Positions 41,289 to 50,454 of a stretch of 50,454 bases of DNA are shown here, piece by piece (the first letter of the stretch is position 1; every line of letters starts with the position of its first letter). The notes beneath the pieces are model-generated. The model had not been told where the DNA came from. It ran no database searches and worked only from the letters and a program-made list of their open reading frames with translations. Position numbers and translations under genes: made by a program. Origin of the DNA: an uncultured Chlorobiaceae bacterium (GTDB lineage: Bacteria; Bacteroidota; Chlorobiia; Chlorobiales; Chlorobiaceae); NCBI GenBank assembly GCA_903939765.1, contig CAJAIK010000080.1, forward strand, positions 1 to 50,454. Reading direction: 5' to 3'.

Positions 41289-41978
41289 TTAATCTTTTAT
41301 GCAGCGTACAGCACTACCTGTTCGTTTTTCCTGGGCAGAGATGGTGATGACGGCATTATGAAAGTCAAATTCTGTATACCAGGCAAGGCTCGGTGTCTGC
41401 TCTGAAGAGGACCATAAAAAAGCTTTTTCACCGAGAAAAAGGAATGCCATCTCTTCCGTTCCTCTGAGGCCGCCTGGTTCTGCATGAAAATGGATTGAGT
41501 TATCGACTGCAAGAGCCGGGTAACGCCATGTTGAGAGTGCATGTAACTTGCTCTCTTCGGAAGGAGAGCTTCCTGTTAAAACGGTTGCAACCTCCATCCA
41601 ATCTTCTTTGGAAGGTAAATGCCAGCCCGATGGAATAATTCCGCGTGGGTCGTTCACGGCATACCAGTTATAGAGGCGTCCGTATTCTTTCGCATTCGCC
41701 GAATCGTTTTTGTAGTAACACCAGGCTCCCTCTTTTTTTGATGCGGCATCCAGCCACTCTTCGTTGGTTTTTGCCTGACGGATGGAATCGCCGTTTCTGT
41801 ACCGTGAGACGTTCAGGTTATCCCGCATCCAGACCTTTTTACCGATGGTGACGAAGCTGTAGGCGTTGCCGTCAATATCAAGAGGGAGGGCCGCAGCATT
41901 TGCCTGCATTGACGAAAGCGATGTTATCACGGTAAGCACCAGGATAAGTAACCCGTACATTGTGTTCTGTCTTTTCAT
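41289..41978 (-). CDS. FISUMP-domain exported protein
   Basis: The 229-residue protein has a signal peptide (residues about 1-29, SSMQANAAA) and a Fibrobacter succinogenes major paralogous domain: VTIGKKVWMRDNLNVSRYRNGDSI, EGAWCYYKNDS, YGRLYNWYAVND, IPSGWHLPSKEDWMEV, LWSSSEQTPS and AVRCIKD. The domain is common in Bacteroidota, Fibrobacterota and Chlorobiota surface proteins; its function is unknown. A strong terminator follows. Confidence 0.88.
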   Translation of the reverse strand: MKRQNTMYGLLILVLTVITSLSSMQANAAALPLDIDGNAYSFVTIGKKVWMRDNLNVSRYRNGDSIRQAKTNEEWLDAASKKEGAWCYYKNDSANAKEYGRLYNWYAVNDPRGIIPSGWHLPSKEDWMEVATVLTGSSPSEESKLHALSTWRYPALAVDNSIHFHAEPGGLRGTEEMAFLFLGEKAFLWSSSEQTPSLAWYTEFDFHNAVITISAQEKRTGSAVRCIKD

Positions 41979-42221: not shown

Positions 42222-43019
42222 TCAGCTCTGCGAATAGGTGTGCACGCTGTTGGCGGCCGAGGGGAGGTAGTTGACCCCGAACCAGCAGACCAGAAGGACG
42301 ACAAAGGAGAGAGCGAGATACCATTGCAGTTTGGCTCGGTCAATCTTGTAGCGCCAGGCATGGAGATAACCGAGATAGGCGAGCCATGTGAGAAAAGCCC
42401 AGGTCTCTTTGGGATCCCATGTCCAGTAATGGCCCCACGCCTCTTTTGCCCAGAGCGCACCGAAGATCAGGCCGAAAGAGAGCAGTACAAAGCCAAGCAG
42501 CGCCAGGTAGTGTGAAACAGATTCTGCGCGATCATTTTTATTGTGCCACAACTGGAGGGAAACGTTGTACCACGCCATCACGGACGATGCGAAAAGCAAG
42601 ACGTAGCCCACCAGATAGACAACAACGTGCGGAATAAACCAGGGACTTTGAAGGGCAGGCATAAGGGTTTTGTCGAAGACCTCGGGATGCAGCATGTTGA
42701 TGACGAGAAAAAATCCGGCAAATGCCATGAGGGCAAACTTAAGCCACCCGATTTTCCAGCGGTACTCAACCAGAAAGCCGACAAGCGGAATAAGCGCCGC
42801 ATACCAGAGCCGGGTTTCGCCAAGCGTCCTGAGCGGAGGACGGTCGAGGAGAATCCAGTACGAAGTGATAAAACAAAATACGACCACCGTGCCCGCAATG
42901 GTGAGAAGTCGAGCGGGGAGTTTCAGAGCAGGAACTTTGAGCGCAATCAGAGTGAGCAGTGACCCTGTCGCCCAGAACAAAATGGCCAGCAAGGCCGCAG
43001 TATTAAAATCAAATTTCAT
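42222..43019 (-). CDS. ccsA: Cytochrome c biogenesis protein CcsA/ResC (System II)
   Basis: The 265-residue membrane protein has about eight hydrophobic segments and the haem-handling WWD-type motif WGHYWTWDPKETWAFLTW near residue 197, plus conserved periplasmic histidines in MLHPEVF, SPWFIPHVVVY and VHTYSQS-flanking regions. With ResB/CcsB it forms the System II synthase that exports haem and attaches it to CxxCH motifs outside the cytoplasmic membrane. Its start overlaps the resB-like gene by four bases. Confidence 0.92.
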   Translation of the reverse strand: MKFDFNTAALLAILFWATGSLLTLIALKVPALKLPARLLTIAGTVVVFCFITSYWILLDRPPLRTLGETRLWYAALIPLVGFLVEYRWKIGWLKFALMAFAGFFLVINMLHPEVFDKTLMPALQSPWFIPHVVVYLVGYVLLFASSVMAWYNVSLQLWHNKNDRAESVSHYLALLGFVLLSFGLIFGALWAKEAWGHYWTWDPKETWAFLTWLAYLGYLHAWRYKIDRAKLQWYLALSFVVLLVCWFGVNYLPSAANSVHTYSQS

Positions 43020-44254
43020 GACTTCACCTCTTTCTGTTTAATGCCATTCCAGAAAAACAGCAGGTTTCCTGCCATAATCATAAAAAATCCAAGATAGACT
43101 GCCGGCAGCCAGGGGTCATGAATCACCTCGATGATGCTGTATTGCGACCATCGTCCGGCATTTTTGTCGTATCCCATCTGGTAGAGCTTCCATCCGGCAA
43201 ATGTGATTGGATGGTTGACTTCAAGGGTTGCTTTTGTCGAAAGTCCCTCCTGGTTATGCACCGTGACCTCCGAAAGAAATGCTTTGGGAGATCCCTGTGT
43301 CATGAGCAGAATGAGCTTGCCACAGGGCAAGGCATAGGGTTTAAGCATGGGGCTGCCCGTGCTGATCCATCCCTCAACTGGCGCAGCTTTGCTGGTGATT
43401 CTCACTTTGGCAAACGCAATTCCGGCGGTGCGGTCTGCCGCTTCAGGTATGCCGTTTTTTCCTTCAAGCGCATAAGGTATAAAGTCAAGCACCTCAACGT
43501 CAACACCTTTCCATGATGCTTTTACCCCCTTTTTTACAAGGGTTGTTGCCTTTGAGAGTTCCTCAAGGGGCTGGCCGCTCTGGGGGTCAAACAAAAAGAG
43601 CTGGGGAGGATACTCCTCAAGCGAAAAGTGGTGCAGAAAGACCGAAAAAGGGAGCTGCAGCGGTGCCTCGCTCTCCATGGAGTAACCGAGGTTGCTCTCA
43701 CGGCCCTCATCCACCTTCATGACAAGGCGTTGCAGGTCGGGAGCGCCAAAAATTCCGCATGAAAGTGCTATCCAGAATCCAGCATGAAAAAGGATGAACT
43801 GGAGATTCTGCAGTTTAAAGGGCACCAGCCTCCACGAGAGCGACAAGCCAAGGTTGCCGAGAAAAAGCAGGATGGTGAGCGCAAAGGGCCAGCTCGAAAA
43901 GATCTGGTTCAGGCCAAGCATGGCAGGCAGTGAGCCAGCTTCAACCGCCGTCTGCGGCACAACACCTCCAATCAGGGAGAGAAGCGCAATGGCAAAAATC
44001 AGGCAGAGACCGAGCGGAATTCCTCCCAGCCATTTGGCAAAGGAGCGGTCTCTGAACGCAACTCCAGCGCTGATAACCGTAACAGCGAAGAGTGCAAGAA
44101 AGAGTGCATTGTATGGTAGATGGGTCTGGGGGACGCCTCTGCCCGAAGCGGCATATTGCATAATAAAGCCTGCAATGACGGCGACTGCCGTAAAAAGAGA
44201 AGACTCCCTGAACTCCCAGGGAGGCTGAAACAAGCGACGAGGGAGATTCACCAT
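43016..44254 (-). CDS. resB: ResB/CcsB-like cytochrome c biogenesis protein (System II)
   Basis: The protein (412 residues from ATG 44254) has N-terminal membrane segments (ESSLFTAVAVIAGFIMQYAA, YNALFLALFAVTVISAG, LGLCLIFAIALLSLIGG), a periplasmic beta domain (about 190-375) with LPFSVFLHHFSLEEYPPQLFLFD and NHPITFAGWKLYQMGYD, and a final membrane helix. This is the ResB family. It is the partner of CcsA and probably holds apocytochrome. AGGT lies before ATG 44254; the longer frame to 44392 adds an unlikely polar leader. The pair is divergent from the CxxCH-barrel gene. Confidence 0.9.
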   Translation of the reverse strand: MVNLPRRLFQPPWEFRESSLFTAVAVIAGFIMQYAASGRGVPQTHLPYNALFLALFAVTVISAGVAFRDRSFAKWLGGIPLGLCLIFAIALLSLIGGVVPQTAVEAGSLPAMLGLNQIFSSWPFALTILLFLGNLGLSLSWRLVPFKLQNLQFILFHAGFWIALSCGIFGAPDLQRLVMKVDEGRESNLGYSMESEAPLQLPFSVFLHHFSLEEYPPQLFLFDPQSGQPLEELSKATTLVKKGVKASWKGVDVEVLDFIPYALEGKNGIPEAADRTAGIAFAKVRITSKAAPVEGWISTGSPMLKPYALPCGKLILLMTQGSPKAFLSEVTVHNQEGLSTKATLEVNHPITFAGWKLYQMGYDKNAGRWSQYSIIEVIHDPWLPAVYLGFFMIMAGNLLFFWNGIKQKEVKS

Positions 44255-44724
44255 AATGACTACCTGTTGGAAAGAAAACTTGTTATTGGGATTATTAATA
44301 AAAGTGAAGGGTTGCCGATTCTTGAAACCACTCTGCTGATCGTGCACAAACGCAACCTTCGGATAATGAGCACCGTTGTCATTATACCACAAGCCGGGGC
44401 TATTCGTTCATCGGCCGAAAAAAGCCCAGGGGAGAGAAGCAACGCATTTTCGTTCATATAAGTGAAAAACTCCCTTTTGAGAGCAAAATATAAGAGAGCA
44501 ACGAGAGTTTCACAAATTAACAATGGTGACCATTTTTTTTATGGAGGCGTCACGACACCTCTTGATTCAGGAAAAGGATGGGTTTGTGCTTAAAATTTAT
44601 TTTCCTATCTTTCACCAAGTTTAACACAATGGAACAGTTGAAAGGGCGCTTGATTGAGGCTCTTTTTATGTTGTGAAACTTCTCCCTGTCTTTTTATTTG
44701 CGACTGATCTTGTCGCAGTGCGTT

Positions 44725-44736
44725 TAACAATTGTTA
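44725..44736. promoter_or_regulatory. 12-bp perfect palindrome, operator-like
   Basis: TAACAATTGTTA is perfectly self-complementary and lies about 100 bases upstream of the putative promoter of the cytochrome-porin gene. A binding site for a dimeric regulator is possible; no regulator can be named. Confidence 0.3.
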
Positions 44737-44756
44737 GACCGCTCTTGTTTTCATAC

Positions 44757-44771
44757 ACCAGTCCAACTGGT
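44757..44771. promoter_or_regulatory. Inverted repeat ACCAGT-N3-ACTGGT
   Basis: Perfect 6-bp arms around CCA, 32 bases after the first palindrome (start to start), about three helical turns. Together they could form a paired operator upstream of the cytochrome-porin gene. Inference from symmetry only. Confidence 0.3.
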
Positions 44772-44836
44772 AGTGGGTCTCTTTTTCTATCTTGTGACGT
44801 TTTTTTGCTGCGGTTATCAATTTTTTTTGAAAAAAG

Positions 44837-44865
44837 TTGCAAAATAAATAAAAAATGAATAAAAT
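44837..44865 (+). promoter_or_regulatory. Putative promoter of the cytochrome-porin gene
   Basis: TTGCAA (44837-44842) and TAAAAT (44860-44865) are separated by exactly 17 bases in a very AT-rich stretch. A start about 7 bases later would give a 5' leader of about 155 bases before ATG 45027. Confidence 0.4.
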
Positions 44866-45026
44866 GAGTTATGATGCGTTTCTCGGGCTGTTACTCAATG
44901 TTGGGTTGGCTAACAACGAAGAGTCGTGTCACCTGGGGATTTGCTTCTGATGCACATCCTTGTTTTTTTATACCGTTGTTGGCAAAAAAGCAATCAATTC
45001 AATCAAAAACATGGAGTAGTCGGCTT

Positions 45027-46403
45027 ATGAAAAAAACGACATTTGCAGGTATTGTGTCTGTCTGTATGGTTCCGGCACTGTTCTGGAGCACAGAGGGTTC
45101 TGCAATACCGTCCTGGGCAAGAAAGTACAATACCTCATGCTACATGTGCCACTCAGGCATGCCGCAGAGGAACGCAGTTGGCGAAGCCTTCAAGAACAAT
45201 GGCTATCGCCTGCCTGGTGGAAACGATGAAGCATTCACCCGTCAGAAGCAGATCAGGATCGGTACGGCTGACTGGGACAAGAAATTCCCGAATGCTCCTA
45301 TTTCGTCATCGTATCCCCAGTTTGATCCGCTAAGTGTTGTGCTCACGGGCAGCCTTCTCAACTACAAAGGACAGACACACACCGTATCTACAGGAGCCGA
45401 AAAGGCAGGAAAAGAGTTTACCATTAACGCAGCTAATACCGCATCGCTTTTCATTGGCGCTACCGTCGGTGATAACCTGACGATTTTTGGTGAGTTGGCT
45501 GGATTTGGCGGTGCCGCATTGGAGGAAGATAACGATAGTGGGAAAATTTCGGGCACCAATGTTGAGAGCCCTGTTACAGCCAACGTTCGTGCTGTATGGC
45601 AGTTCTCTCCCGGTTTTAACCTTGCCCTTGGTAACAGCTTCAGTGCGGTTGGCTGGAATGGCACCGGCGCTGGCGGCGTAGCAAACGTTGGCAGTGTGCT
45701 TCCTGGCCCGGCAACCTATGCTGAGTTGAACTTCACCAGAGGTGAGACGGGTGGCTACTCCATCGTTGCCGGTACCAGCATGGCTGCAAATTACAGAACT
45801 CCCATCTATGCAGACCAGAATCAAATTGCTGATCTTCTCTATGCACGTGTAAAGGTGAAGCTGATCGGCGCAGGCCTGCTCAGTGGCGCCAACGGGCAAC
45901 TCGGCAATGCCTATAATGGCCTCGACAACCAGTTGACGGTCGGTGCAGGTATCTCCTATGCCAACAAAATAAATAGTTATGATGCCAAAGGCAAGCAATT
46001 AGTTGATACAGCAACTATTGGTTTTACAGGCAATTATGCTGGAGAGACCTTGGTCTATGGTGCTGATGTTCAGGGTGCCTACAATGATTTCCTCGTCGGC
46101 GCTGCATACAGTCGCGACAGGGATCTGAAGCTTGACAACTTCAGGATTGAGGCAGGCTACTTTATCTATCCCTGGTTGTTTGCAAAGGTTGGCTACGTAG
46201 ATATCGCGAAGGGAAGCAATCAGCTTGCTACCAATAAGCAGGCAGATGTTCACCAGCCTCAGGTTATTCCATCGATTTCCGCATGGATTACGCCGAGCGT
46301 TTCTCTGACTGGTACCTACACCATTTTCACGAAATCGAGTGATGTCATTGGTAATGTTACCAACCAGAATACCTTCGCCCTGGCTGTCAGGGCTGGCTTC
46401 TGA
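45027..46403 (+). CDS. Monohaem cytochrome-porin fusion, Cyc2-like outer-membrane protein
   Basis: The 458-residue protein has a signal peptide (residues 1-25), then AIPSWARKYNTSCYMCHSG with one CxxCH haem site (Cys38, Cys41, His42) and AVGEAFKNNGYRLPGG. The rest (about 80-458) is alternating beta strands, such as LTIFGELAGFGGAA, YAELNFTRGETGGYSIVAG and FRIEAGYFIYPWLFAKVGYVD, ending TFALAVRAGF with the terminal aromatic residue of outer-membrane barrels. This is the architecture of Cyc2 Fe(II) oxidases, including those of photoferrotrophic Chlorobi. I cannot confirm orthology. Haem-attachment genes lie divergently upstream. I chose 45027 because the signal peptide starts there. Confidence 0.75.
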   Translation: MKKTTFAGIVSVCMVPALFWSTEGSAIPSWARKYNTSCYMCHSGMPQRNAVGEAFKNNGYRLPGGNDEAFTRQKQIRIGTADWDKKFPNAPISSSYPQFDPLSVVLTGSLLNYKGQTHTVSTGAEKAGKEFTINAANTASLFIGATVGDNLTIFGELAGFGGAALEEDNDSGKISGTNVESPVTANVRAVWQFSPGFNLALGNSFSAVGWNGTGAGGVANVGSVLPGPATYAELNFTRGETGGYSIVAGTSMAANYRTPIYADQNQIADLLYARVKVKLIGAGLLSGANGQLGNAYNGLDNQLTVGAGISYANKINSYDAKGKQLVDTATIGFTGNYAGETLVYGADVQGAYNDFLVGAAYSRDRDLKLDNFRIEAGYFIYPWLFAKVGYVDIAKGSNQLATNKQADVHQPQVIPSISAWITPSVSLTGTYTIFTKSSDVIGNVTNQNTFALAVRAGF

Positions 46404-46451
46404 TCACCTGTTGATTCAGCTCTCCTGAGTTTCGGGGAAAGCTCATTTACG

Positions 46452-46498
46452 AAAGAGAGGCATGTTCATCTTGTATGGACATGCCTCTCTTTTTTTTA
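46452..46498 (+). terminator. Rho-independent terminator of the cytochrome-porin gene
   Basis: AAAGAGAGGCATGTTCA (46452-46468) pairs with TGGACATGCCTCTCTTT (46476-46492) through 17 pairs, one of them G-U, and a T tract reaches 46498. It lies 48 bases after the stop codon. Confidence 0.92.
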
Positions 46499-46674
46499 TA
46501 CCTCTTTTCGATTACTCTTTTTTAAGTGAATTTTAAGCATCAGCTAATAGCGTTTTAAGCTTTTATTGCGTAACATAAAAGCTGAAAATTAAGTACGGGA
46601 TGCCTGCAAGCTCTCTGTTCATATCACGATAAACAGCTCTCTCTGCTTCAATTCTTAATTAAAACCCTACGACT

Positions 46675-47190
46675 ATGGTGATTTTTCCGAAGAAAACCCT
46701 TAAGACGCTGCTCTTTGCCTCACTGTTGTGTCTGAGTTGCAATGCCACCTCTTATGCGCTTGAGGCTGGTAGCAAGGCGCCCGATTTCAGCCTGCCGGGA
46801 GTTCAGGGTACGGTAGAGCTTTCGAGCACGGCAGGCTCGGTTGTTTATGTTGATTTCTGGGCATCCTGGTGCGGCCCGTGCAAGCAGTCATTCGCATGGA
46901 TGAACGCCATGCAGGATAAATACAGGGCACAGGGGTTGAAGATTATCGGAGTCAATCTTGACACCAAAACCGAGGATGCCAGGAAGTTTCTGACGCAGAC
47001 TCCGGCCCACTTTACCGTTGCGTTTGAGTCAAAAGGTGTGACACCAAAAAATTATGGGGTCAAGGGTATGCCGACCAGTTTTCTTGTGGGCAGGGATGGT
47101 AAAATTATTTTTCAGCACTTAGGGTTTAAAGAGGCTGATCGCGAAAAACTTGAAAAAGAGATCAAAGCTGCACTGGAGGCAAAAAAATGA
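46675..47190 (+). CDS. TlpA-like thiol-disulfide oxidoreductase, exported
   Basis: The 171-residue protein has a signal peptide (residues about 8-29, TLLFASLLCLSCNATSYA), KAPDFSLPG, the active site WASWCGPCK (Cys66, Cys69), a cis-Pro in KGMPTSFLVGRDG and the terminal strand IIFQHLGF. TlpA/ResA proteins reduce disulfides outside the cytoplasmic membrane, for example in apocytochrome CxxCH before haem attachment. Its stop overlaps the start of the DUF4266 lipoprotein gene in ATGA, and a DUF3570 gene follows. Confidence 0.9.
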   Translation: MVIFPKKTLKTLLFASLLCLSCNATSYALEAGSKAPDFSLPGVQGTVELSSTAGSVVYVDFWASWCGPCKQSFAWMNAMQDKYRAQGLKIIGVNLDTKTEDARKFLTQTPAHFTVAFESKGVTPKNYGVKGMPTSFLVGRDGKIIFQHLGFKEADREKLEKEIKAALEAKK

Positions 47191-47423
47191 AAAAAAATGT
47201 ATTGCTCAAACCCGGTTACGCACTTTTATTGTTGATGCTTGCATTGTCGGGCTGCTCAATCGGGCCAGCGGTTCAGCCTTGGGAAAAAGAGACTCTTGCC
47301 AGGCCTGAGATGACCTTTGAGGGCGATCCGCTTGATAACAAATATACTGAGCATATCTACAGCAGCAAAGAGGCCGCTTCCGGTGGTGCCGGAGTAGGTG
47401 GTGGTGGCTGCGGTTGCAATTAA
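47187..47423 (+). CDS. DUF4266-family small lipoprotein
   Basis: The 78-residue protein has a lipobox at ALSGC (Cys23), then the short DUF4266 core VQPWEKETLARPEMTFEGDPLD with HIYSSKEAASGG and a C-terminal GGGGCGCN. The Cys-Gly-Cys end could bind a metal or form a disulfide or thioether. DUF4266 genes typically lie with DUF3570 and TlpA-like genes, as here. The gene overlaps the TlpA-like gene by four bases, and the DUF3570 ATG comes 28 bases after its stop. Confidence 0.88.
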   Translation: MKKNVLLKPGYALLLLMLALSGCSIGPAVQPWEKETLARPEMTFEGDPLDNKYTEHIYSSKEAASGGAGVGGGGCGCN

Positions 47424-47451
47424 CCTGAATTTTAATTTTCATGATACTCTT

Positions 47452-48603
47452 ATGAAATCACTCCCGACCAAAAAAACTCATGCCCTCGGCGCAGCGCTTT
47501 TTGCTGCTGCCATGGCTCTGCCTTTCTCGAACACTGCTTTTGCAGAAGCGGCGCCGGAACGCGGCATTATTGCTTTTAAATACCTTAACTATCAGGAGAA
47601 CCAACCAGTTTATGAAGATCGTATGGGTGTCAATGCTGTCACGGTCTCAGCCATGGTGCCCATCGCCGGAAAGTGGTCAATCAGCACCTCATACACCTAT
47701 GATTCGGTTACCGGAGCTTCTCCTGAGATGTACAGTACGAGTAACGCGGAGATGGTTTCCGGTGCTTCAAAAATCAGGGAGCAGCGCAATGCCGGTGACC
47801 TGAGCGTTACCCGCTACTTCCCAAAAGGAAGTGTGACAGCGGGCGTAAGCTATTCGGAAGAAAATGACTACATCTCGCGTGGTTACTCTCTGCAGGGAAG
47901 TCTTTCAACCGAGGACAAGAATACTACCTTTACCTTTGGTGGCAGCTATACTGCTGACTCCATTGCAGCCAACATTGAGGAGTGGCAGCTTGCGGGCCGC
48001 ACAGAGGACAAGAGAACGGTTGCCGGTGCGATTGGCGTTACCCAAGTGTTGACAAAGCGCGATATCGTGCAGTTGAATGTTGGCTATTCAAGGGGAAGTG
48101 GCTATTTCACTGATCCCTATAAACCTGGTGACTACAGGCCGGACTGGCGGGAGAGCAAGACGGTGATGACCCGGTGGAACCACCATTTTGACGGAGTTGA
48201 CGGCACAAGCCATCTCTCCTACCGCTTTTACACCGATTCCTTCGGCGTCCGTGCCCATACCTTTGGCCTGGAATATCTTCAGTCGCTTCCGAATGAGTGG
48301 ACCGTGACTCCATCAGTAAGATTCTCTTCCCAGACGGCGGCAGACTTTTATCGTCCTTCCCCGTTTGTGCCTGCTTATTTCTTAGAACCGGGATTTCGTT
48401 CTTTTGACCAGCGCCTTTCAGCATTCGGTGCATTGACGCTCGGTATCAAGCTTGAAAAAAGGATTGCCAAGGATTGGCTTATTGATCTCAAGTACGAGAG
48501 CTATAAGCAGCGTGCGGATTGGTGCATGACCGGTGGCGGTGACGCTGGACTGAAGCCATTCAATGCCTCATTTTTCCAGCTTGGCCTCTCACGGGAGATT
48601 TAA
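47452..48603 (+). CDS. DUF3570-family predicted outer-membrane beta-barrel protein
   Basis: The 383-residue protein has a signal peptide (residues 1-31, PFSNTAFAEA) and then continuous amphipathic strands: GIIAFKYLNYQENQP, WSISTSYTYDSVTGASP, GDLSVTRYFPKGSVTAGVSY, VQLNVGYSRGSGYF and WLIDLKYESYKQRADW. This fits DUF3570, a barrel found beside DUF4266. Start 47452 was chosen from the signal peptide. The function is unknown; location suggests an outer-membrane partner of the TlpA-like and DUF4266 proteins. Confidence 0.88.
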   Translation: MKSLPTKKTHALGAALFAAAMALPFSNTAFAEAAPERGIIAFKYLNYQENQPVYEDRMGVNAVTVSAMVPIAGKWSISTSYTYDSVTGASPEMYSTSNAEMVSGASKIREQRNAGDLSVTRYFPKGSVTAGVSYSEENDYISRGYSLQGSLSTEDKNTTFTFGGSYTADSIAANIEEWQLAGRTEDKRTVAGAIGVTQVLTKRDIVQLNVGYSRGSGYFTDPYKPGDYRPDWRESKTVMTRWNHHFDGVDGTSHLSYRFYTDSFGVRAHTFGLEYLQSLPNEWTVTPSVRFSSQTAADFYRPSPFVPAYFLEPGFRSFDQRLSAFGALTLGIKLEKRIAKDWLIDLKYESYKQRADWCMTGGGDAGLKPFNASFFQLGLSREI

Positions 48604-49069: not shown

Positions 49070-50454
49070 ATGGCATATACGTATACGTCTACGGGTGGCG
49101 CTGGTGCTGATTCATTTAATCTCTTCGGCACGAGTGGCGGAAAGCCTGCGACTGGCTCTACCTATTATTTTGATGGTGGCCTCGGCAATGATACCCTGAC
49201 GTTTAATAATGGGTTCGGGCAGTATGGCTCAGGATATATCAGTACACGATTTACCATAGCACCTGTGGATGTTAACGGATTGATTGTTGTATCCGGATCA
49301 AGTTCAGGCGGCAAAATTTTTACCTTTACATTGAAAAGTGTTGAAACACTGGTTTTTGCGGACAAGACCATTCAGCTCTCTTACGCTTCGACGGTGGATA
49401 CCACCCCACCGACCTTATCCATCACGAGCAGTGCAAGTGCCCTGAAAATTGGCCAGACAGCGACCATCAGCTTTACCTTCAGTGAAGATCCCCTTGCAAC
49501 CTTTACGGCGTCCGACATTGCCGTATCCGGTGGCACACTCACCGGCTTGACCACTACCGGCCTTGTCCGTACGGCAACCTTTACGCCGACGGCGGGCCTT
49601 GCTTCTGGCACAGCGAGCATTACCGTTGCCAGCGGCAGCTACACTGATGCTGCACTTAATGCTGGTGGTGCAGGGACAACACCCTCAATCACCATTGATA
49701 CGCTTGCTCCAACGGTAGCCATTACCAGCAGCACGACCGCATTGCACGCTGGCCAGACCGCGACCATCAGCTTTACCTTCAGCGAAGATCCCCTTGCAAC
49801 CTTTACGGCATCCGACATTGTGGTATCCGGTGGCACCCTCAGCGGCTTGACCACTACCGGCCTTGTTCGTACGGCAACCTTTACGCCGACAGCAAGTCTT
49901 GCATCCGGTTCTGCAAGCATTACGGTTGCCAGCGGAAGCTACACTGATGCTGCACTTAATGCTGGTGGAGCTGGCACCACCCCTTCAATAACCATTGATA
50001 CGCTTGCTCCAAGGGTAGCAATCACCAGCAGCGTGCCGACCTTGCACGCAGGCCAGACCGCGACCATCAGCTTTACCTTCAGCGAAGATCCCCTTGCAAC
50101 CTTTTCGGCATCCGATATTGCCGTATCCGGTGGCACCCTCAGCGGTTTGACCACTACCGGCCTTGTTCGGACAGCAACCTTTACGCCGACGGCGGGCCTT
50201 GCTTCTGGCACAGCGAGCATTACGGTTGCCAGCGGGAGCTACACTGATGCCGCACTTAATGCTGGTGGAGCTGGCACCACCCCCTCAATCACCATTGATA
50301 CGCTTGCTCCAACGGTAGCAATCACCAGTAGTGCAAGTGCCCTGAAAATTGGCCAGACAGCGACCATCAGCTTTACCTTCAGCGAAGATCCCCTTGCAAC
50401 CTTTACGGCGTCCGATATTGCCGTATCCGGTGGCACCCTCAGCGGCTTGACCAC
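49070..50454 (+). CDS. Large repetitive protein with RTX-like N-terminus and tandem Big (Ig-like) domains, 3' end outside window
   Basis: ATG 49070 follows AGGAGA and the frame stays open to the window end (461 codons seen). There is no signal peptide. Residues 1-110 start MAYTYTSTGGAGADSFNLF and contain FDGGLGNDTLTFNNG, a GGxGxD RTX-like calcium motif, and SVETLVFADKTIQLSYAS. From about residue 115 come bacterial Ig-like repeats of 100 residues (TATISFTFSEDPLATFTASD, VSGGTL, ASITVASGSYTDAALNAGG, PSITIDTLAPTVAITSS), which resemble the Big_12-type domain. RTX-like start without signal peptide suggests type I secretion. An adhesin or surface-layer role is inferred; giant repeat proteins are known in Chlorobium. 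Confidence 0.85.
   Translation, partial: MAYTYTSTGGAGADSFNLFGTSGGKPATGSTYYFDGGLGNDTLTFNNGFGQYGSGYISTRFTIAPVDVNGLIVVSGSSSGGKIFTFTLKSVETLVFADKTIQLSYASTVDTTPPTLSITSSASALKIGQTATISFTFSEDPLATFTASDIAVSGGTLTGLTTTGLVRTATFTPTAGLASGTASITVASGSYTDAALNAGGAGTTPSITIDTLAPTVAITSSTTALHAGQTATISFTFSEDPLATFTASDIVVSGGTLSGLTTTGLVRTATFTPTASLASGSASITVASGSYTDAALNAGGAGTTPSITIDTLAPRVAITSSVPTLHAGQTATISFTFSEDPLATFSASDIAVSGGTLSGLTTTGLVRTATFTPTAGLASGTASITVASGSYTDAALNAGGAGTTPSITIDTLAPTVAITSSASALKIGQTATISFTFSEDPLATFTASDIAVSGGTLSGLT
49412..50454 (+). repeat. 300-bp tandem repeats encoding Ig-like domains
   Basis: Units run 49412-49711, 49712-50011, 50012-50311 and 50312 to the window end (partial). Period is exactly 300 bases. 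Units are highly similar at DNA level. Units 1 and 4 share ASALKIGQTATIS, while units 2 and 3 share LHAGQTATIS, giving an A-B-B-A pattern. Confidence 0.95.

Follow-up and report, generated by a model that had tools for sequence, protein, structure and literature searches.

A Cyc2-related cytochrome-porin next to a predicted flavinylation cassette in an uncultured Chlorobiaceae bacterium

The window analyzed here, a stretch of 50,454 nucleotides that constitutes contig C80 (CAJAIK010000080.1) of an uncultured Chlorobiaceae bacterium (assembly GCA_903939765.1; genome G000, Chlorobium-type, 2.98 Mb in 128 contigs), carries near its end a gene for a putative cytochrome-porin, a monohaem cytochrome fused to an outer-membrane barrel, followed by a cassette encoding a TlpA-like thioredoxin, a DUF4266 lipoprotein and a DUF3570 protein. 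Divergent from them lie the genes of CcsA and ResB. Gene calling and Pfam and NCBIfam profile searches recover every one of the six genes, with the motifs and in the order, proposed in an earlier reading of the sequence alone, here called the original prediction (Table 1); signal peptides and the lipobox (LSGC) were judged by eye. For DUF4266 that reading gave the ending GCGC; the C-terminal cysteine motif holds and the exact letters do not, as the protein ends in GGGGCGCN. The start of ResB is probably the ATG near 44254. New to the locus are a terminator behind the cytochrome-porin gene, two flavinylation motifs in DUF3570 and, on a second contig, ApbE and DsbD as the probable next genes.

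Table 1. Features of the locus, in window coordinates
Feature	Coordinates	Strand	Evidence
CcsA, System II haem attachment	42222..43019	-	Pfam Cytochrom_C_asm 2.3e-30; top NCBIfam match CcsB, below cut-off
ResB, System II	43016..44392	-	Pfam ResB 1.9e-18
Conserved leader/promoter stretch 5' of cytochrome-porin	44876..45010	+	Sequence conservation among relatives
Type-A cytochrome-porin: signal peptide, AIPSWARKYNTSCYMCHSGMPQRN, predicted 16-strand barrel, C-terminal F	45027..46403	+	Sequence, AlphaFold2, Foldseek, tree
Strong intrinsic terminator, predicted 3' end of cytochrome-porin transcript	46451..46493	+	Folding energy, z-score -6.6
TlpA/ResA-like periplasmic thioredoxin, WCGPC	46675..47190	+	Redoxin 1.7e-22; 4-bp overlap with DUF4266 gene
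DUF4266 lipoprotein, C-terminal CGC (CxC)	47187..47423	+	DUF4266 6.6e-24
DUF3570, predicted outer-membrane barrel, ApbE motifs TGAS 87-90 and SGAS 103-106	47452..48603	+	DUF3570 8.4e-69
Repeat-rich Ig-like (Big_12) protein, start only, runs off contig	49070..50454	+	Big_12 7.6e-79

The cytochrome-porin, a protein of 458 aa, begins MKKTT...GSAIPSWARKYNTSCYMCHSGMPQRNAVGEAFKNNGYRLPGG, ends in ...AGF and matches no Pfam or NCBIfam model above cut-off. Given that homologues occur in many Chlorobium genomes in a conserved gene order, we regard the gene as real and not a product of chance; an upstream ATG at 44871 was rejected as the start of a longer protein, since the extension is out of frame in relatives. 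Its signal peptide, its one CxxCH near the N-terminus and its size and fold (at least 365 aa, C-terminal 16-strand porin) agree with the criteria given for Cyc2 by Keffer et al. 2021 (PMC8406198). An AlphaFold2 model built on 65 homologues shows the 16-strand barrel with a mean pLDDT of 75 and a pTM of 0.76. In a Foldseek search of the PDB, general porins head the list and OprP comes at rank 48; Keffer et al. 2021 (PMC8406198) name OprO and OprP as the folds closest to Cyc2. M45 is the only Met or His between residues 43 and 110, which leaves no obvious sixth haem ligand.

Is this protein Cyc2? Cytochrome-porins surveyed in 98 genomes of the order fall into four kinds. Type A is the kind found in the window, where the motif is PSWARKY; type B reads IPAFARKY...CYTCHSGFPARN, type C LPVFARKYHTACSTCH, and type D is canonical Cyc2, TPVFARQT...CAACHFQRFPLLN. 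In the tree, type A forms one clade (27 rows, eight of them assigned by the W motif; SH-aLRT 96) that is sister to B and C together, and a branch of 3.5 changes per site separates type D from the rest. The window protein therefore falls outside the clade of characterized Cyc2, represented in this tree by canonical Chlorobium Cyc2 only. Alignment of profiles by hhalign relates types A-C to D with a probability of 98.2 and an E value of 5.5e-14 in the N-terminal part only, and detects no similarity through most of the barrel; likewise, the canonical Cyc2 profile matches the window protein over residues 3-66 alone. Two motifs of Cyc2 described by Keffer et al. 2021 (PMC8406198) are altered. Upstream of CxxCH, AXPXFAR[QK][TY] is replaced by AIPSWARKY, which has W for F and otherwise fits, and after it PXL is replaced within HSGMPQRN, where the proline is kept and L becomes R. 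Given the two altered motifs, the confinement of similarity to the N-terminus and the separate clade, the sequence identifies a member of the Cyc2 superfamily that is not canonical Cyc2. The Cyc2-like haem-porin of the original prediction is thus supported by hhalign and by the barrel model, and of the profile check that it had suggested the relationship stands while the canonical identity does not. The window genome carries type A only, a profile search of it detecting no canonical Cyc2. The closest named relatives of the protein are all metagenome-assembled genomes (MAGs) of uncultured Chlorobiaceae, many from northern lakes, the best 80 loci are all Chlorobi, and a plasmid search found no homologue on plasmids. 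A further clade outside Chlorobi is formed by Bacteroidota cytochrome-porins (CHAPFPKLK.YGDEFAGNGF) that lie beside a protein with 4-5 CxxCH (loci L280-L284, L288).

The original prediction saw no known place for DUF3570 and DUF4266 in a pathway of this sort, a claim that fails because a system of thioredoxin-like protein, DUF4266, DUF3570, ApbE and often DsbD was described in 2021 from hundreds of clusters, with experimental evidence that DUF3570 of Chlorobium luteolum is flavinylated by ApbE at two [ST]GA[ST] sites (Meheust et al. 2021, PMC8238504). The window DUF3570 has both sites, TGAS at residue 87 and SGAS at residue 103, the C-terminal CxC of DUF4266 is present and so is the thioredoxin-like member. 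Judged by its sequences, the cassette is this known, if only partly described, system and not an undescribed one. A search of the open literature, with subscription papers and preprints outside its scope, found DUF3570 or DUF4266 named in no other paper. At locus L179 of genome G025 the order is ResB, pointing away, and then TlpA, DUF4266, DUF3570, ApbE and DsbD. With G025 presumably C. luteolum DSM 273, the C. luteolum protein that was tested probably corresponds by synteny to the window DUF3570. A second DUF3570 gene of the window genome (G000:C66:23166-24305) has both flavinylation motifs and neither TlpA nor DUF4266 beside it.

In the window genome ApbE and DsbD are found on contig C33. 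The last 104 bp of the window recur without a difference close to the end of that contig, on which the Ig-like gene runs on into ApbE and DsbD, so that both probably follow the cassette across the assembly gap. The join is an inference, as the gene is full of repeats and not spanned by any read. The order on C33 agrees with that of relatives L065, L067 and L069; in these and in L082 ApbE (and DsbD) is contiguous with the cassette, and in several relatives the Ig-like gene sits between DUF3570 and ApbE. It was this repeat-rich giant gene that broke the assembly at the window end.

Two transcripts most likely cover the cytochrome-porin and the cassette, because a strong terminator separates them and the cassette genes are tightly packed (a 4-bp overlap, then 28 bp). 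The terminator has a 19-bp stem, its 81-nt fold reaches -34.5 kcal/mol with a z-score of -6.6, and comparable hairpins lie 3' of most type A, C and D genes. A single operon of cytochrome-porin and cassette was rejected on account of the terminator. The leader upstream of the cytochrome-porin is conserved among type A and B genes (24 places, 22 of 91 genomes), has no match in Rfam and may be a promoter, an operator or a leader. No RNA structure is claimed for it, as covariation is too weak: a small hairpin, GGA..TGC/GCA..TCC, has two compensatory cells only, and a riboswitch was rejected given the lack of an Rfam match and a covariation score that 25 of 500 shuffles reached. A regulon defined by this element was likewise rejected, since genomes that have it hold essentially one copy, which in the cases checked sits 5' of A or B cytochrome-porins.

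Conservation of the gene order, which the original prediction had named as a check, is borne out in relatives. Among genes with enough flanking sequence, a same-strand DUF3570 lies within 4 kb downstream in 13 of 24 type A, 0 of 28 type B, 0 of 20 type C and 4 of 12 type D cases, counts that are not phylogenetically independent. For type B the count is 15 of 20 within 12.5 kb, as a Rieske-octahaem block intervenes. At L091-L096, L098, L104 and L123, and outside the order at L270 and L271, the genes behind type B encode, in order, a Rieske protein, a 2[4Fe-4S] ferredoxin, cytochrome b, subunit IV, a membrane cytochrome with 8 CxxCH, cytochrome c and a cupredoxin-like protein, an arrangement that looks like a complete chain from outer membrane to quinone; it occurs in several Bacteroidota families, and a search of the window genome for the block gave no octahaem match. 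Such a neighborhood could be a chromosomal coincidence of vertical descent, an old ccsA/resB-dsbD site that cytochrome-porin and cassette merely share. Types A and B indeed occupy one site, possibly through one ancestral event, and 20 cytochrome-porin loci sampled outside the order have no DUF3570 neighbor. We nevertheless think coincidence unlikely, given that canonical cyc2 lies directly upstream of TlpA-DUF4266-DUF3570 at two different sites: beside Ssb, S18 and L9 ribosomal genes, named by eye, at the rpsR/rplI site (L161, L163, L167), and in L106, where it is inserted into the type-B/cassette locus. These add at least two juxtapositions, and no other evidence speaks as strongly for a functional link between the units.

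CcsA and ResB had been included in the pathway by the original prediction. The ResB at this locus is the single match in the whole genome, and it is kept in L179, where the cytochrome-porin is absent. A role as haem-attachment genes dedicated to the cytochrome-porin was therefore rejected; because the genome has no other ResB, the pair is, on these matches, housekeeping System II and a mere neighbor of both units. A FISUMP-domain protein at 41289-41978 adjoins CcsA and is kept at the same site in many type-A loci. Could TlpA and DsbD instead be the thiol-reducing arm of System II (ResA/CcsX, CcdA-like), keeping CxxCH reduced for CcsA/ResB, with DUF4266 and DUF3570 as a side branch? TlpA does adjoin ccsA/resB, and its top NCBIfam match is ResA, at 96 bits and below the cut-off of 170. 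Yet its gene overlaps that of DUF4266 and travels with DUF3570 and ApbE away from ccsA/resB (L174-L177, L161, L163), and the grouping is the same in hundreds of other clusters (Meheust et al. 2021, PMC8238504), so we give this explanation little credence.

We lean, with modest confidence, to the view that two separately transcribed outer-membrane redox units stand side by side at a conserved site. In the first, the type-A cytochrome-porin, its haem domain most likely tethered at the barrel, would pass single electrons between an outside donor, be it humic matter in reduced form or Fe(II), dissolved or bound to ligands, and small periplasmic c5-type cytochromes, which would feed the photosynthetic chain. 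In the second, DsbD would draw electrons from cytosolic thiols and move them outward to a relay of the TlpA-like thioredoxin and DUF4266, the CxC lipoprotein. From there they would reach two FMN groups attached by ApbE on loops of the DUF3570 barrel. The analysis shows the gene content, the modeled folds, the flavinylation motifs, the conserved neighborhood and a layout of separate transcripts; the directions, the donor, the acceptor and any cooperation between the units are what we infer. The original prediction had combined CcsA/ResB, cytochrome-porin and cassette into one pathway that takes electrons across the outer membrane, possibly from Fe(II) or another extracellular donor. Its redox neighborhood stands, and the recurrent pairing, in type A, in type B and at the two canonical cyc2 sites, speaks for a single route; the terminator between the units, the sole ResB and the genomes that hold the cassette without a cytochrome-porin speak against it, and so does the outward direction in which DsbD-type systems drive electrons, the reverse of that in Fe(II) oxidation. 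A single pathway hence appears improbable to us, though the pairing recurs in related lake bacteria.

How might the second unit reach the cell surface? The AlphaFold2 model of DUF3570 has 16 strands (pLDDT 82, pTM 0.80), and Foldseek matches it to OmpG and other outer-membrane barrels. Odd-numbered connections average 13.6 residues and even-numbered ones 3.6, which marks the odd set as the likely outer loops. Both predicted FMN sites of the window protein fall in the connection of strands 3-4; other members of DUF3570 have one of the two nearer the N-terminus, apparently between strands 1 and 2. The loop that carries them may point outward or fold into the barrel lumen. This placement suggests an outer-membrane flavin conduit, of which we found no description in the literature. 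DUF3570 could then do with flavin what a porin-cytochrome does with haem: covalent FMN on loops L1/L2 of its 16-strand outer-membrane barrel would pass electrons from periplasmic thiols (DsbD, TlpA, DUF4266) outward, and its pairing in Chlorobium with Cyc2-type haem barrels would let cells draw electrons in at their surface as well as give them off. We put this forward as a speculative and rather doubtful extension.

Several observations weigh against the two-unit reading. The cassette stands alone, with no cytochrome-porin nearby, in L174-L177, L179 and L180, and the 20 sampled loci outside the order lack DUF3570 near the cytochrome-porin, some of them keeping the bc/octahaem block. The association is not universal in type A and within that type may be a single inherited event. 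A small c5-like cytochrome adjoins the type-A genes that lie away from the cassette site and most canonical cyc2 genes, which is a point in favor of the reading; the window copy lacks it, homologues lie elsewhere in the genome, and the 634-bp gap before the cytochrome-porin holds no c5 remnant. Four c5-like haem domains in a row are encoded at G000:C100:14348-15882, possible periplasmic partners of the cytochrome-porin. As to the models, residues 13-46 of the cytochrome-porin, haem motif included, have pLDDT below 50, so the model does not fix the haem position; of the structural check that had been proposed, the barrel fold is upheld. The extracellular side of the FMN loops is read from loop lengths, and loop pLDDT is low.

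Which donor would the cytochrome-porin serve? The genome has DsrA, so iron would not be the only donor of this organism. For Chlorobium of Trout Bog that has Cyc2 homologues, published work (PMC12285243) supports a light-driven uptake of electrons from dissolved organic matter, and on that ground humic matter is as plausible a donor as Fe(II). Fe(II) oxidation by the window protein is unproven, given that every named carrier of type A is an uncultured MAG, that DsrA is in the genome as well and that the protein is not canonical Cyc2. In Chlorobium, cyc2 by itself is usually taken as the sign of photoferrotrophy and electron uptake. Types A-C are three clades besides canonical Cyc2 in the same genus, they lack the full Cyc2 motif set, and they should not be taken for iron oxidases by default. 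The pairing of cassette and cytochrome, canonical cyc2 included, links a flavinylated barrel system of unassigned role to outer-membrane cytochromes and gives the DUF3570 system a testable physiological setting; within the literature scope stated above, we found nothing that joins ApbE or flavinylation with Cyc2 in Chlorobium.

Compared with known systems, the window protein shares with Cyc2 (cluster 1; PMC8406198) the signal peptide, the single N-terminal CxxCH, a C-terminal 16-strand porin and a homologous haem domain, and differs in PSWARKY for PxFAR[QK][TY], in PQR for PxL and in its separate clade. Cyc2 homologues of lake Chlorobium have been reported for Trout Bog GSB-A/B (PMC12285243) and in a Trout Bog Cyc2 survey (PMC6344600). 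They belong to the same superfamily, whereas type A is carried by neither of the two genomes: types B, C and D are present in both the GSB-B and the GSB-A record (G037 and G038), in keeping with the three homologues reported for Trout Bog. The System II pair of CcsA and ResB is complete, adjacent to and divergent from the cytochrome-porin, and shows no sign of dedication to it. With the system of Meheust et al. (PMC8238504) the cassette shares the protein families, the two [ST]GA[ST] sites, the CxC C-terminus and, in relatives, ApbE and DsbD downstream; its thioredoxin, in contrast, matches Redoxin/AhpC-TSA and not PF13899, and that paper mentions neither a barrel or porin fold for DUF3570 nor a connection with cytochrome-porins of the Cyc2 type.

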